Source of the DNA: Aureococcus anophagefferens
Lineage: Eukaryota > Sar > Pelagophyceae > Pelagomonadales > Pelagomonadaceae
Reading direction: 5' to 3'
NCBI RefSeq assembly: GCF_000186865.1
Contig: NW_008705566.1
Span: forward strand, 1,605,699 to 1,669,698
Length of the DNA stretch: 64,000 nt
In this document: piece by piece, positions 22,006 through 58,828 of the stretch
How positions within the stretch are numbered: position 1 is the first letter of the stretch
Layout: each line of letters starts with the position of its first letter
Program-made: the position numbers and the translations under genes
Notes under the pieces: model-generated
The model's input: only the letters and a program-made list of their open reading frames with translations
Database searches by the model: none
Told to the model about the DNA's origin: nothing

Positions 22006-22977
22006 GGGTCTCGACGCGCGCCGGCCGGGTCGCAGGCGGCCGCGCTCCGCCGCCGGGAGCGCCGGGAGCGCCCCGCCCTTCGCCTTGCCCTTGGCGAAGG
22101 CCGCGGCGGCGCGCGCGACGGCGCGCGTCGGCTTCGGCTTCGCCGAGGCCGCGGCGGCGCGCGCGACGCCCTGGGTCGGCTTCGGCCTCGCGAAGGCCGC
22201 CGCGGCGCGCGCGACGGCTCCGCTCGGCCCGGCGGCCGCGGGCGCGGCCCGCGCGAAGCGCAGGAGCGCCCGGAGCCACTCGAAGCAGCTCTCGAGCGCC
22301 CGCAGGAGAGGCTCGTCGCCCTCGGGGAGGCCGCGCGCGACGGCGGTCCAGGCGACGCCGTCGAGCGCCGCCGCGAGCGCGGCGGCCAGGTCCGGGTCCG
22401 CGTCGTCCGGCCGCCGCCGGAGCAGGTCCCCCGTGAACGACGGCGCGGCTATGCGCCGCGCCGGGCGCGCGCTCGCGGCGCCGGGCTTGTCCGCCGCGCG
22501 GACGAGCGCCGCGGCGAAGCTTCGCGCCTCCTCGCCGGCCGCGTCGCCCTCGAGCCACGCGGCGAGGCGCGCGAAGACGTCGCGCGAGCAGGCGGCGGCG
22601 ACGCCGCGGTGCGTGACGAAGACCCGCAGGCGCGCGAGGTCCGCCTCGGACGCGGCCGGCGCCGCGGCCGGCGCCGGGGTCTCCGCCTCGCTCGCCGGCT
22701 TCGAAGCGCGCCGGTTGCCCCAGACGACGACGCGCGCCCAGGAGCGGTGCCAGATCATCTCCACGAGCTCGTCGGCGGCGTAGCGCGCCGGGTCGAGGTG
22801 CTTCGCGGCCTCCGCCGGGTTTGGCGCCAGGGCGCATAAAATGCGATGTACGATTGGCTTTGGCAGCACCGCCAGGCCATTGCCGGGCCGCGCCGCCGCG
22901 AGCACGAGGACGAGGGCATCTTTCAGCTTCGCCGGCGACGGCGCGAAGAAGCCGCCGGGGCGCCGGACGGGCTTCAT
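21997..22977 (-). CDS. Hypothetical protein with C-terminal VARAAAAFAK repeats
   Basis: 326 residues. The N-terminal region (KDALVLVLAAARPGNGLAVL, HLDPARYAADELVEMIWHRS, VVVWGNRR) reads like a folded helical domain. The middle is Ala-rich. The C-terminus holds three copies of an 18-residue basic unit built on VARAAAAFAKPKPT, similar in style to histone-H1-type lysine/alanine tails, so nucleic-acid binding is possible. I do not recognise the family. Its stop overlaps the last codons of the glycosyltransferase gene tail to tail. Confidence 0.55.
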   Translation of the reverse strand: MKPVRRPGGFFAPSPAKLKDALVLVLAAARPGNGLAVLPKPIVHRILCALAPNPAEAAKHLDPARYAADELVEMIWHRSWARVVVWGNRRASKPASEAETPAPAAAPAASEADLARLRVFVTHRGVAAACSRDVFARLAAWLEGDAAGEEARSFAAALVRAADKPGAASARPARRIAAPSFTGDLLRRRPDDADPDLAAALAAALDGVAWTAVARGLPEGDEPLLRALESCFEWLRALLRFARAAPAAAGPSGAVARAAAAFARPKPTQGVARAAAASAKPKPTRAVARAAAAFAKGKAKGGALPALPAAERGRLRPGRRASRPLR

Positions 22978-22988
22978 CGTTACGTTAG

Positions 22989-23064
22989 CATGTCCATGCT
23001 GCCCTCGCTTTTATCAACTTCGTTATGTCGCATGTCCATGCGCTTTTATCAACTTCACTAATCC
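22989..23064 (+). repeat. Two tandem ~40-bp units in an intergenic region
   Basis: CATGTCCATG followed by CGCTTTTATCAACTTC occurs twice, starting at 22989 and 23031 (42-base spacing; the second copy lacks a few internal bases). It lies directly upstream of the ATG of the minus-strand hypothetical gene and may hold its promoter. The rest of 22978-23246 shows nothing recognisable. Confidence 0.8.
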
Positions 23065-23246
23065 TTAATTACCCAAAGTTTACCAGATGTTACCCATCAA
23101 CACACGACTCGTGCCACATGCCGATGTGCTCTAGCTTTGCTCACTGGTGAAGCATCCACGCTTCCAACCGAGCAGTGTCGGCCCTGTTTGTGGCGCGTCA
23201 TACGGAACTTGCATGAACCACTACGCGTGGACGGTCTCGTTGAGCG

Positions 23247-23927
23247 ATGAGGGTCCTTGCGCCCCTCCTCGTCCTGGGCGCGGCCGCGTTCCTCGGGGAG
23301 ATGCCGCGGCGTGCGCGCCGCTTGCGACGCGACGCGCGCCGGCGGGGGGCCGAGCTCGACGTCGACCCGTTCGCCGTGCTCGGGCTGGACGCGGCGGCCC
23401 TCGCCGCAATGGATCCGCGGAGCCGCGACGCGGCGGTGCGAGCCGCGTACCGCGCCGCGGCGCTGGCGTCGCACCCGGACACGTCGGCGACGGAGCGCGG
23501 CGACCGCTTCGCGCTCGTCAAGCGCGCCGCGGACGCGCTGAAGCGCGAGGACGATTTCGAGAGGCTCGCGCGGGCCCACGCGGCGGCGCGCGACGACTCG
23601 CTGGCGGCGCTCTGGCGCGACGAGGTCCGGGAGTGGTCCGTCGAGCGGCTCGCGGCGCACCTGCGGGACGAGGGCGCGCCTGAGCCGGTCGTCGCCGCGT
23701 TCGTCGAGGAGGACGTCGACGGCCGCGAGGTCGTCGGCGTGCCCCAATGGGAGGGCGACGACGTCGACCACTTCATCTGGGCGCTCCGCTGGCTGGGCAC
23801 CGAGGACGAGGCCGTCGCCGCGCGGACGGAGAAAATCCTCCGCGACCTCGCGGGCCGCGAACGCGGCGCGAATTTCGTCCGGCGCGACGGCGCCCAGGGG
23901 CGGCGGGCCGATAGGACCAATTTCTAG
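23247..23927 (+). CDS. Plastid-type J-domain protein with SAM-like C-terminus
   Basis: 226 residues. A signal peptide with Ala-Ala-Ala-Phe at its end (PLLVLGAAAF) and a basic stretch (PRRARRLRRDARRRG) form a secondary-plastid presequence. A J-domain runs about 40-105 (DPFAVLGLDAAALAAM, AAYRAAALASHPDTS) with an intact HPD. The C-terminal half resembles a SAM-type helical module (WSVERLAAHLRDEGAPEPVV, FVEEDVDGREVVGV). Predicted role: a plastid cochaperone that activates an Hsp70, with a protein-binding tail. The combination is unfamiliar to me. Confidence 0.75.
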   Translation: MRVLAPLLVLGAAAFLGEMPRRARRLRRDARRRGAELDVDPFAVLGLDAAALAAMDPRSRDAAVRAAYRAAALASHPDTSATERGDRFALVKRAADALKREDDFERLARAHAAARDDSLAALWRDEVREWSVERLAAHLRDEGAPEPVVAAFVEEDVDGREVVGVPQWEGDDVDHFIWALRWLGTEDEAVAARTEKILRDLAGRERGANFVRRDGAQGRRADRTNF

Positions 23928-28171: not shown

Positions 28172-28374
28172 GGGAGGGGCGAGGCGCGTAAGGAGGGGCG
28201 TTGCTGCTTGGCGCGGTCGCGGGGCAGCGTCGCGGCGCGCCGTCACGGTCGTAGCGCCGGGGTAAATGATGCAACTTGAAGTGTGCTGAAAGTGGCTCGA
28301 GAGTGGTGCCGCGGGCTGCCGCTCCGGATCAAAATGGGCAGCTCCGTTTGAGCTCGCGGGTTCGCAATCCCAGG

Positions 28375-29715
28375 ATGGGTAAAGAGCGCTACGTGAAAGT
28401 GAAGTCACCGCTGTTCGAGGATGCTTACTGGGAGGGTTTGGCTCTCCGAAGCTCCATACGGAAGGACGTCCTGAAACTTGATAATGATGCATATCAAGAA
28501 GCATGCGCGTTCCAACTCAACCTGGAATTCGACGACCAGCCCTGGACGCTCGAAAACCTGCGCGAAATCATCCACAAGTTCACGCGGATCCCGGCTCGAC
28601 GAATCGTGTTCGCCGAGCAAGGCCGCGACCTCGAGGCTGACTTCGAATTTGACGGAGGCGAGACGCTCGCCAGGAACTACAAGCTCTCCATGCGCATCTG
28701 CCGCGACGCGGTGGGTCGTTGCGGCGTCCCAGCGTCCCCCGACGCGAGGCCGCTCGAGATCCTTCCGGATGCCGCCCTCGGCGCCTGCGTCGCGTTCTGT
28801 CGTCCGCGAGCGGTCGCGATCCTCGGAGCGACCTCCAAGGCGACGCGCGAACGCCTCGTCGCCGACGTCGTCGGCCATCAAGCGGCCACGGTCTTCGCTC
28901 GTTTCTACGGCGTGCGCGGCCTCGACGACGTGGCGTCGCTGCTCGCTTCGCACGCTCCCCGCTTTTCCGAGTGGACCGCGACGCACCGGGACGCGACTCT
29001 CGATCCGGCGCTCGCGCTAGCCTTGAGCCGCGGTGTGGTTGCCGACGCCTACTCCGATGGGGAACGCGAGCGGGCGCTCGCGGCGTCTGGCGTGCGATGG
29101 AAGTCTTGCGAGCGCACCTGGTTCCACGAAGAAACCGACGTCCGACAAGGCTTTCGCGGCACGGTCGTCCTTGCCGATCGCCTGGAGGTGTCCATCGACA
29201 CGGGTCTCGACATTTACGCTGAAAGCGGTTTCGGCTGGGCTATTAGCATCGAAATTAGAGTGCACTACAGGAGGAAGAGCAAGGCCCACCGGAAACCGTC
29301 ACCGCTAATGCTCGCCAGCCTCGGTTCGGGCTACGGCGATCTACGCGACGATAGCAGTAGAAAGATCTCCGGGTCCGTCTGCGAACAGCTTTCGGCTGAG
29401 CTGGAATTGCCCGTCGGCGTCGACCGGCTGCTGAAGTTTCTCGCGCTCGTCCTGGCTGGCCCGCTTCGCTGGGAGAGGCCCGCCCACCACTATGTCCCGC
29501 ATCAGAGTCTCCTACTCCTGATCTCGAGACAGATCGAGGTCGCGACGTTGATCCACACCGGAAAGATGAGCGTCGACAACGACAACGACTTCGACGTCGA
29601 CGACGAGAAGCGCGCGTGCCAGCCGCCGCCGCCCGAGTTCGAGCGGCCACTCTTCGCGTGGTCCGCGGAGCAGGACTCGGGCTGGTGGTCGCGCTACGTC
29701 GAGCCGGCGAATTGA
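28375..29715 (+). CDS. Ubiquitin-like-fold protein with F-box-like segment
   Basis: 446 residues from the ATG at 28375. Residues 35-115 (ACAFQLNLEFDDQPWTLENL, then IIHKFTRIPARRIVFAEQGR and a final YKLSMRI) follow the strand-helix-strand order of a ubiquitin-like fold. A segment beginning PLEILPDAALGACVAFCRPR resembles an F-box in spacing. The C-terminal 250 residues are unrecognised. Base composition is noticeably less GC-rich than the neighbours and codon choice is more relaxed (GAA, AAA, CGA frequent), so this gene may be younger, less expressed or acquired. It could be a substrate adaptor for a cullin ligase, but that is speculative. Confidence 0.6.
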   Translation: MGKERYVKVKSPLFEDAYWEGLALRSSIRKDVLKLDNDAYQEACAFQLNLEFDDQPWTLENLREIIHKFTRIPARRIVFAEQGRDLEADFEFDGGETLARNYKLSMRICRDAVGRCGVPASPDARPLEILPDAALGACVAFCRPRAVAILGATSKATRERLVADVVGHQAATVFARFYGVRGLDDVASLLASHAPRFSEWTATHRDATLDPALALALSRGVVADAYSDGERERALAASGVRWKSCERTWFHEETDVRQGFRGTVVLADRLEVSIDTGLDIYAESGFGWAISIEIRVHYRRKSKAHRKPSPLMLASLGSGYGDLRDDSSRKISGSVCEQLSAELELPVGVDRLLKFLALVLAGPLRWERPAHHYVPHQSLLLLISRQIEVATLIHTGKMSVDNDNDFDVDDEKRACQPPPPEFERPLFAWSAEQDSGWWSRYVEPAN

Positions 29716-47962: not shown

Positions 47963-48284
47963 GCTTTTTTGCGAAGCCCGCGCCGCAGGCGCCAGGCCAG
48001 ATCTTCTGGCCGAAGGGCGTAGCTTTTGTCCGAAGGTTGCGAGACAGCCATACGATGCGCTCCGCTCGATTTGTGTCCCACATCAGTGCGCAAAATCTAG
48101 AGCCTCTCACGCGGCGAGCCCGGGCTCGCCAGAGAGCCCCTACGGAGAGGATCAGGCGGAAAATACGCTTTTCCCGGAACGACGTCGTAACGGCGAACGC
48201 GGCGGGCGGTTTCGCGTCGAAAGCGCTCATTCGAGCCCGAGGGGAGGTCTGCGGGCCCCGAGGAGCGATCGAAGCGTATGTACA

Positions 48285-48900
48285 CGCTCGGGGGGGGTCG
48301 GGGAAGGGGTGCGCGCAGGCGGAGACGTCGCGCGCGCCCACCTACCCCGCTTGCGGCCGACCGAATGTCGGGGGGAACGCGTCCGGCGGCCGCCGCGCGC
48401 GTCCCATGGCTCGGTGACGCGCTCGCAGCGCTTGCAAACGCTCGGGGGGCTCGGGGAAGGAGTGCACGCCGGCTGAGACGTCGCGCGCGCCCACCTCCCC
48501 CGCGCGCGGCCGACCGACATTTGGGGGGGAACCCGTCCGGCCGCCGCCGCGCGCATCCCAGCCCCCGCGCAGCGCTCGCAGCGCGCCCAAACGCTCAACG
48601 GGGTCGGGGAAGGGGTGCGCGCCGGCGGCGACGTCGTGCGCGTGCAGCTTCCCCGCGCGCGGCCGACCGACATTCGCGCGGGGGGAACGCGTCGGCCGCC
48701 GCCGCACGCGTTCCAGGCCCCCGTGCAGCGCTCGCAGCGCTCCCACGCGCTCGGGAGGGTCGGGGAATGAGTGCTCGCCGGCGGCCACGTCTTGCTCGAC
48801 ATCTCTCTCGCGCTCGCGGCCGAGCGTCTGTCGGGGCGAACGAAGCGCTCCCGATCGCCGCCGCCGCCGCCGCGGACACCTTCGCGGGTCTGCGGCGCCG
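48285..48900 (+). repeat. Four ~154-bp tandem units inside the foldback element
   Basis: Units start at 48285, 48439, 48592 and 48748 with CGCTC(GGGG) followed by GTCGGGGAAKGRGTGC and a later GGCCGACCGA. The spacing is 154, 153 and 156 bases. The copies are diverged by substitutions and short indels, more so than the arms, and the fourth fades out near 48900. Open frames across the array have no recognisable product. Confidence 0.85.
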
Positions 48901-49800: not shown

Positions 49801-51540
49801 ATGGTCAAGCTCACGGTTCGCTGCGCGTCGCAACCGGCGGTCGCCGCTCCTCGGCGCGTCGCGCCGACGACGCTGTCGCCCGCCGAGCGGCTCGCGGCCG
49901 GCGAGCGGCTCAAGAAGAGCGGCAACGACGCCTACGGCCGCGGCGACGCCGCCGGCGCCGTGGAGCGCTGGGTCGAGGCCGTGGACGCGCTCCGGGGCGC
50001 CGGCGGCGCCGCGCGGCTGCTCGGCGAGCCCGCGGCGGCGGCCGTCGCCGTCGCGTGCCTGAGCAACTGCGCGCGCGCGCGGCTCGAGCTCGGCGGCGCC
50101 GCGGGCGACGGCGACGGCGCGGCCGCGGCCGCGCTCGAGGACGCGAACGGCGCGCTGGCCCTCGACGGCGACAACGTCAAGGCGCGCTTCCAGCGCGCGC
50201 GGGCCCTCGCGCGCCTCGGGCGCGTCGACGACGCCGCCGACGCCGTCGCGTGGCTCGAGGGCCGCGAGCCGGCCAACGCGGCCGTCCGCGCGCTCGCCGC
50301 CAGGGTCGCGACCGCCCAGGCCGTCGTCGCCGCGGCCACGGGCGCCGCGCTCGCGCCGGCGAAGCCGAGCGCCGAGGACGCGGCGGCGGCGAAGGCCGAC
50401 GCGGACGCGGCCTTCCGCGCGGACTTTCGCGCGGAGGCGAAGCGGGCCATGGCCGACGCGGAAGCCGCGTGCGCGAAGCAGAACGCCAAGATCTGCGGCA
50501 CGTCCGCGTCCGCGGCGCTGCGCGGCGACGGCGCCGGCGACGGCGCCGGCGACGCCAAGCTCCTCGAGGAGCTCGCGGGCGTCGAGCGGGAGGCGAACGC
50601 GCTCCTCGACGACGCCGCGGGCGTCGCGCCGCGGAGCGCCTCGGCCGCCGTCGCCGGGGCCCCCGTCGAGGTCGTCGAGCCGAGCCCCTTCAAGGTCGAC
50701 GTGCCCAAGACGGCGCGTGCGACCACCACCAGGGCCGCCGACAACAACACGGCCGGCGCCGCCGAGGCCGCCGACAACAACACGGCCGGCGCCGCCGAGG
50801 CCGCCGACAACAACACGGCCGGCGCCGCCAAGACCGCCTCCGGAAGCGCCGGGGCCGCCGGTCCCCGTCCCGCCGCCGGGACCGCCCTGGCCGCCGCGGC
50901 GAGCCCGTTCAACGTCGACCTGCCGCGGCGGCGGGCCGTCGCGGCGCCGCTGGACCCCGCGGCCGAGGAGCTGCGGCGGCTCCGGGCCCGCGCGGGCGAC
51001 GTCCGCGCGGCCGCGCGGCCCGCGGCCGCCGCGGGCCCGTCCGTGTCGGAGATCCTCGCCGCGAAGCGCGCCGCGAGACGCGCGGCGAAACCCGCCGCCG
51101 CCCCGGCGCCGGGCGCCGCGCTCGACGCCGCCTGGGCGGCCATGGCCGACGGCGAGTCCGCGGACGTCGCGGCCGCGGCCGCGCGGCGGCCCGCGGCGGC
51201 CGCGGCCGCGCCGCGGGACCGCGTGGACCGCGGGCCGAGCGGCGTCGCGCCCTGCGAGCCCGGGCCGATCGTCGCCGAGGTCTGGGCGGACCTCGCCGCC
51301 GACGAGCGGGGCAAGGCGAGCGTCGTCGACGCGCGGCGCGCGGCCGCGGCGGACGTCGCGCCCGACCGCGCGCGGCGCAAGGCGCGGAAGCACGCCAAGG
51401 CCGTCGCCCGGGCCGCCGCCGCGCCGAAGATCGGCGCGAGCCCCCTCGCGGAGCTCGAGCGCGGCCACGAGGCGCAGCTCGCGGCCTACCGGGAGCGCGA
51501 GGCGAAGATCCGCGGCGCCGCGGCAAGCGACGGAGGTTAG
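49801..51540 (+). CDS. TPR protein with Ala-rich, low-complexity C-terminal half
   Basis: 579 residues from the ATG at 49801 (MVKLTVRCASQPAVAAPRRV). Residues 30-150 form TPR units of the Hsp-organising style: GERLKKSGNDAYGRGDAAGA, AVACLSNCARARLELGG, VKARFQRARALARLGRVDDA. The rest is Ala-rich with two SPFxVD motifs (SPFKVDVP, SPFNVDLP) and three copies of AADNNTAGA. A basic C-terminal segment (RARRKARKHAKAVARAAAAP) may bind nucleic acid. Partner unknown; chaperone binding is plausible. The final TAG overlaps the TAA of the channel gene on the other strand. Confidence 0.7.
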   Translation: MVKLTVRCASQPAVAAPRRVAPTTLSPAERLAAGERLKKSGNDAYGRGDAAGAVERWVEAVDALRGAGGAARLLGEPAAAAVAVACLSNCARARLELGGAAGDGDGAAAAALEDANGALALDGDNVKARFQRARALARLGRVDDAADAVAWLEGREPANAAVRALAARVATAQAVVAAATGAALAPAKPSAEDAAAAKADADAAFRADFRAEAKRAMADAEAACAKQNAKICGTSASAALRGDGAGDGAGDAKLLEELAGVEREANALLDDAAGVAPRSASAAVAGAPVEVVEPSPFKVDVPKTARATTTRAADNNTAGAAEAADNNTAGAAEAADNNTAGAAKTASGSAGAAGPRPAAGTALAAAASPFNVDLPRRRAVAAPLDPAAEELRRLRARAGDVRAAARPAAAAGPSVSEILAAKRAARRAAKPAAAPAPGAALDAAWAAMADGESADVAAAAARRPAAAAAAPRDRVDRGPSGVAPCEPGPIVAEVWADLAADERGKASVVDARRAAAADVAPDRARRKARKHAKAVARAAAAPKIGASPLAELERGHEAQLAAYREREAKIRGAAASDGG

Positions 51541-53323
51541 TAGAAGGCGGCGTCGAGGGGCGCGTGCGTCGTCTCGCGGCGGCCCGCGTTGACGCCCGGG
51601 TCCACGGTGACGCGCTGGCCCTTGGGCACGGGCTGGGCCGCGGACCGCCGCGCGCGGTCGGGCTCGGGCTTCGGCTCGGGCTCCGCGGGCTCCAGGGGCG
51701 TCACGGGCGTGTACTCCGCCGGCGCGACGCGCGCCGCGTCCTTGCCGTCGTCGGCGACCTTGGCGTCCTCGGCGTCACCGGCCGGCTCCGCGGCGCGCGC
51801 GGACGCGCGGCGCGCGTCCGACGCCTTCTTGCGCCCCGTCTGCCGGCGGTGGCCGCCGTTCGCCGCGGGCCGCCGGGCCCGGCCGTCGGCGCCCGCCGCG
51901 GTGTCGCCGTCTTCGTCGCCGACGTACTCGGCGTCGACGATGTCCGCGCGCGCGGTCGCGACGGCGTCGACGACGACGCCGAGGAGCACGTTGAGCACGA
52001 GGAAGGTCATGACGACCTCGAAGCTATAGAAGAAGGCCATCTCGAGCCAGAGCGGCGCGCAGTCGACGAGATCGTCCGTGTCCTCGCCCTCGGAGAACGA
52101 GTGGATCGTCGTCTCGTAGCGGACCGCGTACTCGTCGTCGCCCGACGACGCGCTGTAGCCCCAGGGGATGCCCTCGCAGGTGTGCGTGAGCCGCTTCGCC
52201 ATCTCGCCGCCCGCGCTGTCCGTGAGGAAGGACCACATGGTGAAGAAGCTCTCCGCGAACGTGCCGAAATACGCGGGGTGGTCGCGCTCGAACCTGGGCA
52301 GCAAAAGAGTGATTCAAGTTCGCTTCAACGTGAGTGTTCCGCGCGCGCGCGTTCCGGAAAAATCGTCCACGCTTCGAGGCCGTTCCAAGAGATGATCGCT
52401 CGTCCAAATATCAGCCGAAACGAGTGGGAAACGGCCGAGATAGGAGCCTCCAAAGTTGGGAATTTCGCACCCTTTTGCTGCCCTGGCTCGAACGCGATGA
52501 AGCCGATCGCGGACCAGAGCCAGAGACCCAGCGCGAGCACGAGGCCCGGGTAGAGGATGACCGGCAGCGCGCGCGCGATGGGCACGATCTGCTTCTGCAT
52601 GACCCGGAGCCGGAACACCGACAGCCCCGTGAACGTGTCGAGGAGCAGCGTCGCCGTCTTCGTCGTCTCGTCGCGGTCGACGCTCACGCCGTGGCCCGTC
52701 ACGCGCGCCTCGGCGTACAACAGCCCCCAGTACGCCGCGGCCCAGGGGCAGACCACGAGGCACCAGACGCGGTCCGCGGCCGTGTTCCGCAGGACGAGCC
52801 GCGCGACGATCTCGAGCGAGAAGACGGCGTTCGCGCCCCAGTCGACGCGCCGCAGGTACCACGTCGCCGCCGTGCCGTCCGGGTAGTAGGACGCCGTCAG
52901 CGACGCGAGCTTGCCGACCGTCGCGAGGCCCATGACGACCTCGACGGCCGCGCGGTGCCGCCGCCACGCGCCGGTCCACCGCGCGACGAAGCGCCGGCGC
53001 TTGCGCAGGGCCTTGCGCAGCTCCGGCGACTCGTCGAGGAGCGCGCTCGCCGCCGCCGCCGCGGCGGCCGTCGCCTGCTCGACGGCGTCCATGCCGGGCA
53101 CGCCGGACTTGCGCGGGCCGCGCGGGCCGCCGCCGCGTTGCGCGGCCTCGGCGCGCGCGGCCGCGTCGCCGAGGCGCAGCGCGAACTTGCGCAGGGCCGG
53201 GACGAGCGCCGCGCCGCCGCCGCCGGCGCAGCGGGCCTCGGCCAAACGCACGGCGGACTCGAGGACGCCCACGGCGAGGGCCTCGGCGTCGCCGTCGACG
53301 TGGGCGTGGTGCACGCCCTCCAT
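51537..53323 (-). CDS. Single-domain voltage-gated-like cation channel, split by an introner
   Basis: Exons 53323-52494 and 52293-51537 give 528 residues. Exon 1 carries S1-S4-like helices (AVEVVMGLATVGKLASLTAS, GANAVFSLEIVARLVLRN, VWCLVVCPWAAAYWGLLYAE), an S4 with few charges (LSVFRLRVMQKQIVPIARAL) and S5 (YPGLVLALGLWLWSAIGFIA). Exon 2 holds the pore region FAESFFTMWSFLTDSAGGEM and S6 (FYSFEVVMTFLVLNVLLGVV). One 6-helix domain would assemble as a tetramer, as in bacterial NaV and algal EukCat channels. The filter lacks their usual acidic-x-Trp. The C-tail is charged and disordered. Splicing joins AFE to RDHPAYFG exactly. Confidence 0.78.
52294..52485 (-). mobile_element. Introner element 2 (intron-forming TIR element)
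   Basis: 192 bp. On the gene's strand it starts CAGGGCAGCAAAAGGGTG and ends CACTCTTTTGCTGCCCAG, inverted repeats matching at 16 of 18 positions. It is flanked by a perfect 8-bp duplication, GTTCGAGC on that strand (52486-52493 and 52286-52293). The donor GT is the first two bases of the upstream duplication and the acceptor AG is the last two bases of the element, so the 200-base intron 52493-52294 leaves GCG TTC GAG CGC intact. The core CCAAATATCAGCCGAAACG (52404-52422, plus strand) matches introner 1. Confidence 0.9.
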
Positions 53324-54964: not shown

Positions 54965-55110
54965 ATGCGGCTGCTATGCTGGTGGTATGCGCCTGCTATG
55001 CGCCTGCTATGCGTCTGCTATGCGCCTGCTATGCGCCTGCTATGCGTCTGCTATGCGCCCGCTATGCGTCTGCTATGCGGCTGCTATGCGGCTGCTATGC
55101 TGGTGTATGC
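54965..55110 (+). repeat. 11-bp tandem repeat, about 12-13 copies
   Basis: The unit ATGCGCCTGCT and variants (ATGCGTCTGCT, ATGCGGCTGCT, ATGCTGGTGGT) are repeated head to tail with very little length change. Because 11 is not a multiple of three, successive units are read in all three frames and none contains a stop, giving long spurious frames rich in Met, Leu, Cys and Tyr. The array lies just beyond the Copia remnant and about 200 bases upstream of the amine oxidase start. Confidence 0.95.
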
Positions 55111-58236: not shown

Positions 58237-58804
58237 CCGGTGCCGCGCTGTTCTAGAACAGCGCGGCATGAGCGGCGCGGTCGTCACGGGCCCAGCCAGG
58301 CCAAAAAACGCGATGTCACTTTCCGCGACGAATCGGGACGAACCCCGTACGCCTAAATACATTTCGGAGACTCTGAATTCATTTTCGACGTCCTTGGTGC
58401 CGTGTAAGACGACCTCGCGGAAGCGCGCGCGTGCACGCGCGGCCGAAAATATTAAAAAAATAAAATAAAATACAGATACGCGAGCGCATCGAGCCCCTCG
58501 CGCTGCGGCATCGCTTTAAAGCTCTTCCAGAGCGAGTTCATGCCGCGCGGCGGCCAGCTGTTTTACAAAGCGCTTAGCGGCGGCTAAAAAAGATATAACT
58601 CCGAGTCGGTAGAAAAAAAAATTAACTTTTTTAGTTTACGATTTTGCATTTTTTTTTGTGCGAGACTCTCGGCATTGGGCGTTGAGCTTCAACGTTGAGT
58701 CCGGTGTTGAGCTTCAAGGTTGCCGGTGTTGAGCTTCAAGGTCGGCTTCAACGCCGCGGTTTCCGCCGCTCATGCCGCGCTGTTCTAGAACAGCGCGGCA
58801 CCGG
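58237..58804. mobile_element. 568-bp element with 41-bp TIRs containing a 28-bp perfect palindrome
   Basis: Left end 58237-58277 and right end 58764-58804 are exact inverted copies: CCGG, a palindrome with half-site TGCCGCGCTGTTCT (58241-58268 and 58773-58800), then TGAGCGGCG. The interior is strikingly A/T-rich around 58450-58475 and 58590-58650 and carries three copies of GTTGAGCTTCAA-type sequence at 58683-58742. No coding capacity or clear target duplication is seen. It is a probable MITE-like non-autonomous transposon. The rest of 57854-58828 holds no supported gene. Confidence 0.7.
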
Positions 58805-58828
58805 AGGCACCCAAAAAAAAACGCCACG

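Follow-up and report, generated by a model that had tools for sequence, protein, structure and literature searches.

A short, non-autonomous DNA transposon of an introner family appears to have inserted into a coding exon of an ion channel gene of Aureococcus anophagefferens and to be spliced out of the transcript together with one copy of its target duplication, a reading to which we assign a probability of about 0.95 on the strength of the sequence. Direct examination of the raw genome sequence indicates that a great many introns of this compact algal genome came from this one transposon family, and the reading frame is preserved in every sampled copy judged to lie in coding sense. The insertion lies within a window of 64,000 nucleotides (the whole stretch of DNA analysed), which occupies 1605699-1669698 of contig C6, and comprises the following features, all on the minus strand.

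52494..53323, minus strand: upstream coding part of a single-domain ion channel, start codon uncertain
52294..52493, minus strand: predicted spliceosomal intron, 200 nt, phase 2
52486..52493, minus strand: first 8-bp target duplicate, minus-strand GTTCGAGC, source of the donor GT
52294..52485, minus strand: 192-bp non-autonomous element (introner copy), body sense to the gene, 'class A'
52468..52485, minus strand: donor-side inverted end CAGGGCAGCAAAAGGGTG
52294..52311, minus strand: acceptor-side inverted end, minus-strand CACTCTTTTGCTGCCCAG, pyrimidine-rich tract and AG acceptor
52286..52293, minus strand: second 8-bp target duplicate, forming the start of the downstream exon
51537..52293, minus strand: downstream coding part of the channel, up to the stop codon

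Read directly on the plus strand, GCTCGAAC (52286-52293) is followed by the 192-bp element (52294-52485) and by GCTCGAAC again (52486-52493). The element terminates in CTGGGCAGCAAAAGAGTG and CAGGGCAGCAAAAGGGTG, which form 18-bp inverted ends identical at 16 of 18 positions, and the predicted 200-nt intron (52493-52294, minus strand) starts with the GT of the duplicate and finishes with the CCCAG of the element tip. The preliminary description of this locus had proposed a 192-bp element with inverted ends of about 18 bp and a perfect 8-bp duplication, a donor GT taken from the first duplicate and an acceptor CAG supplied by the tip of the element; direct reading bears out all of these. Removal of the 200 bases was also said to restore GCG TTC GAG CGC without a scar, and the joined exons do read so (...GFI-A-FERDHPAYFGTF...). 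Three arrangements in the window combine an exact 8-bp repeat with a pair of ends spaced 90-400 bp apart and alike at no fewer than 15 of 18 positions; the other two are GC-rich low-complexity pairs, one of which (51171-51351) likewise reaches 16/18. None of 60 Markov shuffles attained an end match of 16/18. The GC content of the element is 55%, against 72% for the window.

The window contains 25 dips of low GC, each of approximately 180-610 bp (e.g. 22911-23280, 28261-28670 and 58331-58810), which are candidates for introns or for the borders of genes; one of them includes a run of N. Among these dips, inverted ends matching at 13 in 14 positions and accompanied by an 8-bp duplicate occur only at 52294-52485. 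Tandem arrays are present at 48284-48791 (a 153-bp unit in 3.3 copies) and, in a low-GC stretch, at 54965-55100 (12.4 copies of the 11-mer ATGCGCCTGCT).

Splicing of 52493-52294 in RNA is predicted. If the intron is retained, the frame shifts and a stop codon is met; the spliced product contains a Pfam Ion_trans domain (E 1.9e-8, residues 128-392) that spans the junction at residue 277. A search of the channel protein against its own genome returned six matches, two of them its own exons and four of them other genes. In each of the four paralogous genes the match crosses the junction in one stop-free open frame at 29-31% identity, and all four align gaplessly over residues 261-295. Exact removal of 200 nt therefore restores the reading common to the paralogs, which are without this intron.

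The 49.05 Mb assembly (86 contigs) was searched for further copies. Those with the same ends, on whose existence the preliminary description had staked its family assignment, were found in abundance: allowing up to two mismatches, the inverted end has 1,571 genome matches against 9 for the reversed-pattern control. Exact degenerate end patterns gave 1,510 left and 1,362 right ends (0 for each reversed-pattern control), and the two-ended exact CAG...CAG pattern, CAGGGCAG-N168..184-CTGCCCAG, was present at 1,125 places (1 in the control). Many near-identical predicted introns are thereby found in different genes. Membership of an introner-type family is upheld by the shared ends at more than 1,000 places together with the duplications, inverted ends, coding-strand orientation and frame restoration. 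The viral and prokaryote collections yielded no match to one exact body pattern of the element.

Copies were fetched mainly from the first listed places on contigs C1 to C3, with the eight best DNA matches added, a sample biased toward copies with intact ends. The first set comprised 88 loci with 88 element matches; the second comprised 40 stretches (L117-L156), of which 39 are distinct because L131 is the same copy as L022. From the donor count we dropped eight of the 88 (L010, L011, L018 twice, L023, L038, L043 and L073), whose duplicates differed by 2-4 mismatches or whose ends could not be placed, and L143 of the second set (3 mismatches). The resulting 118 distinct copies have at most one mismatch between their duplicates. 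Inverted ends and target duplications, the latter of 8 bp, recur across the sampled copies. At C1:2490559-2490995 (L082), two copies that belong to one class lie approximately 59 bp apart, both flanked by an 8-bp duplicate of their own, and would leave a very short exon between them. Two weaker relatives of the body (L018:1845-2019 and 2192-2371) are without recognisable duplicates and are perhaps decayed copies or members of another subfamily.

With the sense of the donor read from the AG tip, the 118 copies start with GC in 69 cases, GT in 47, GA in one and CG in one, so that GY is present in 116. The GT donor of the preliminary description is thus correct for the window copy, but the donor of the family is GY, with GC the commoner form. 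In the exon flanks (one copy being counted twice), GY makes up 20% of dinucleotides, GC 16% and GT 4.3%, and relative to this background GT is enriched 9-fold and GC 3.7-fold at the donor. Positions 3-8 of the duplicate show no consensus beyond a mild excess of G at position 3 and of C at position 8. Within 20 nt of a donor there are about 7.5 GY dinucleotides (again with one copy counted twice), so that the dinucleotide by itself cannot fix where the cut is made. The copy starting with GA (L144, C1:2625203-2625394) fits in strand and frame and would form a GA-AG intron if spliced likewise. The sole copy starting with CG (L060, C1:859023, plus strand) lies antisense to its gene and, by eye, probably sits inside a longer intron. 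Non-GY starts are nearly absent from the 118 copies, though neutral insertions outside genes should escape the GY constraint; either genes are preferred as insertion sites or copies that do not form introns are lost.

Coding calls were made using a codon model with unsupervised training. Among the 80 copies of the first set, both flanks could be called in 66; 11 were weak and 3 too short. Sixty-four of the 66 were in sense orientation, and the frame was kept in all 64; L060 was antisense and L066 was called mixed, its sense frame being open on both sides by eye. All 35 callable copies among the 39 distinct copies of the second set, which lay outside the training, were sense and in frame at a slightly lower calling threshold than that of the first set; the remaining 4 were weak. 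Pooling the sets, 99 of 101 callable copies lie in sense orientation in coding sequence and 99 of 99 are in frame after excision. Phases 0, 1 and 2 are represented by 23, 18 and 23 introns in the first set. Of ten spliced products picked by eye from 58 for Pfam analysis, two have a domain that clearly spans the junction (Pkinase in L002, Peptidase_M20 in L028) and one a domain that does so marginally (LtrA in L041); four have an accepted domain only beside the junction and three have no domain.

These observations are consistent with a mechanism in which a short element of the introner family enters the coding exon of the channel gene and duplicates 8 bp of target. Transposition would be the mobilising process, most likely through a transposase that acts in trans to move the element and produce the 8-bp duplications. 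The acceptor-side inverted end would bring a ready-made 3' splice site, consisting of a pyrimidine-rich tract and CAG; each arm, when read outwards, would provide such a tract, and would become an acceptor only if position 2 gives the A of AG. The donor would be whatever GY starts the duplicate, which in the window copy is GT. One splice site is, by sequence, carried by the element and the other co-opted from the duplication. The spliceosome would then remove the element and one duplicate (200 nt in total), leaving the protein unchanged.

The strand of the intron may be decided by a single base. On the body strand of the window copy, two classes are seen, CAG...CAG with a duplicate starting GY and its mirror image, CTG...CTG with a duplicate ending RC. 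Read along the gene, either class gives CAG...CAG, the body being forwards in 75 and backwards in 43 of the 118 copies. In the 90 copies assigned to a class from their tips, the acceptor end has T at position 2 in every case, which yields the AG of the acceptor, and the donor end has A there in 78, G in 11 and C in one. The matching arms of the preliminary description stand, but with a systematic difference at position 2, which makes the acceptor. Elsewhere the arms vary together: positions 9 and 11, both variable within the family, agree between arms in 87% of the 90 copies (50 and 58% expected), a level reached in 0 of 1000 shuffles.

Counts of tip patterns across the genome are independent of the classing of copies by tips. 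The symmetric CAG..CTG pattern, with gaps of 168-184, occurs at 0 places (controls 1 and 1), and CTG..CAG with the same gaps occurs at 13 (controls 4 and 4), of which six are 192 bp long. The other seven are, by their listed letters, ordinary copies beside a chance CTGGG, as was confirmed for L089 by reading it. Thus, of the 1,131 exact-ended places counted over the three patterns, 1,125 have the mismatch at position 2. Of the six 192-bp CTG..CAG copies, three (L097, L098 and L099) have the gene in body sense with the frame kept, L101 has it in reverse sense with the frame kept and an extra base at one end, L102 lies in a gene on the reverse strand and L100 has a weak coding call.

A longer relative has symmetric tips. 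L051 and L052 represent the two ends of one 479-bp element (L051:1501-1979; C1:618576-619054) with a perfect 21-bp inverted repeat and CAG at both ends, each in its own reading, and an AG acceptor is impossible at either tip. Its body differs from that of the family; it has 58% GC, stops in most frames and an internal 72-bp repeat (83%), and was common to no other fetched locus, though L145 shares the 21-bp end. By coding score, the 300 bp on each side are non-coding or close to it, and the flanks show no 8-bp duplicate. hAT transposons generate 8-bp duplications and have ends starting CAG, both ends starting with CA. The present family resembles them in its 8-bp duplications and in the CAG of the donor end and of both ends of the 479-bp element; unlike them, it reads CTG at its acceptor-side end. 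Ends that both start with CA were thus found only in the 479-bp relative and not in the 192-bp family. As a single copy, the 479-bp relative hints at how an ancestor should have looked in which one base change could turn either end into an acceptor. One end would keep the hAT-like A or G at position 2 and the other, which must give AG, would have T, and this asymmetry would set the strand of the intron.

The two orientations could have arisen by point changes at the tips or by inversion of the body in place between the arms, the tips being kept. The latter has a substantial chance of being correct, falling somewhat short of even odds. Intermediates of point change are rare at the 192-bp length (CAG..CTG 0 and CTG..CAG 6, against 1,125), as inversion would have it, and a tree of 139 rows (133 classed) requires 12 class changes, at least five of them forced by starred branches. 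However, the tree, built from short bodies, is weakly resolved. Nine class changes are needed on a tree of 84 tipless bodies, and the AU test against a single clade gave p 0.017 with the bootstrap unsettled; the corresponding value for the 133 classed copies was p 0.052. Repeated switching of polarity is therefore likely, short of formal proof. The symmetric CAG ends of the 479-bp relative also make separate point changes from a symmetric ancestor possible, and the occurrence of CTG..CAG copies in genes in both orientations argues that a path by point change exists.

Mobilisation through RNA, in which an excised intron is reverse spliced as proposed for fungal introner-like elements, is very improbable. 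It would accommodate the fact that nearly all sampled copies are intron-like and that 192-bp non-intron copies are hardly seen. Against it, each copy has its own 8-bp duplicate, whereas an excised intron would bring its duplicate along; the inverted ends vary in concert at positions 9 and 11, and the body is present in both orientations. Still less probable is that the channel gene is disrupted by an unspliced miniature transposon whose fit to an intron is accidental, given the agreement of strand and frame in 99 of 101 callable copies and the retention of frame and homology by the downstream half of Ion_trans beyond the intron. An ordinary intron with accidental repeats is ruled out by the family size and frame statistics. 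An origin of the tips in the target instead of the element was also rejected, since the flanks do not supply them.

We return to transposition in trans, for which an autonomous partner was sought. The 479-bp element was considered for this role and rejected as a non-coding relative. The hAT transposase domains PF05699 and PF14291 had no match in the genome, and these searches were silent in every control genome too, so that the negatives carry no weight; the same held for DUF4371 and KDZ. Ends with G or T as the inner base number 17 genome-wide (1 in the control), and 15 of these were examined (14 fetched, plus L141; C10:1120258 and C15:541870 were left out). No autonomous partner was found among the 15, all of which match the family body, with L104 and L106 cut by an edge, L113 partly N, L107 shortened (165 bp) and the ends of L108 and L114 badly placed.

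Compared by description, the element is an introner as described for Micromonas and Aureococcus, and its kind is already known. Huff et al. 2016 (Nature) reportedly described introners whose splice sites are supplied in this divided manner, in Aureococcus anophagefferens and in Micromonas pusilla. Passages describing the introners of Huff et al. at second hand (PMC9612004, PMC10228655, PMC7789003) agree with the present family, in that those introners are short non-autonomous DNA transposons with inverted ends and target duplications that carry one splice site and take the other from adjacent gene sequence. Insertion in both orientations, as seen here for the body, is also reported at second hand in a passage of PMC10228655. 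In the part of PMC7789003 that concerns A. anophagefferens, introners have inverted ends, direct repeats of constant length and canonical splicing motifs, whereas GC donors are present in 69 of our 118 copies; the same source places the alga among species with a raised share of non-canonical introns. A characteristic length of about 210 bp is stated for A. anophagefferens introners in a passage of the P. calceolata paper (PMC9481584), compared with 200 bp for the intron here.

Sections of Gozashti et al. 2022 (PMC9860276) report introners of the same kind in many lineages, with insertions under negative selection. According to these sections, introners of Symbiodinium microadriaticum likewise carry the 3' site and inverted ends and obtain the 5' site from the duplication, which is of 4 bp rather than 8 bp. 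They further describe family 4 of the Aureococcus sp. TARA isolate, of the same or a related genus, which shares the 8-bp duplication but brings its own donor and acceptor and lengthens the transcript by 12 bp; the element here would add nothing. In the portions of the introner literature covered, which lie outside the main description (Huff 2016), no mention of the position-2 asymmetry was found, and this feature may be new. Pieces of the element ends were also matched against full-text literature, where no title among the matches listed concerned introns or algae.

The preliminary description had further held the insertion to be recent. The intact duplicates agree with this, but the terminal branch (0.044) exceeds the median (0.025). 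Together with an identity of 95% to the best scored relative (40 of 1,994 candidates being scored), this supports a recent origin only in part.

A joint reading of these findings can be put forward tentatively, and we consider it rather doubtful as a whole. The inverted end would serve both as transposase end and as 3' splice site, with position 2 deciding the strand of the intron and staying mismatched as the arms otherwise vary in concert. Starting from a symmetric ancestor, of which the 479-bp element may be a trace, the transposon would have given introns in both orientations, with repeated polarity switches. The donor would need only GY, its site being set by its place 8 nt outside the stem of the arms, without a consensus. 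The stem of paired arms is our hypothetical candidate for placing the donor cut. In RNA folding, the arms were paired (at least 12 of 20) in 101 of 119 minimum-energy folds, one copy being counted twice; such pairing is expected of any inverted repeat, and the result was therefore set aside as evidence. The one-base difference between otherwise matching ends offers a straightforward way to test how the end of a transposon turns into a splice site, and the GY-only donors a good system in which to ask what, beyond sequence consensus, marks the start of an intron for the spliceosome. In class B copies (e.g. L012-L014), the antisense body holds a GTGAGT in its interior; this is a textbook 5' splice site and might be used as a cryptic donor.
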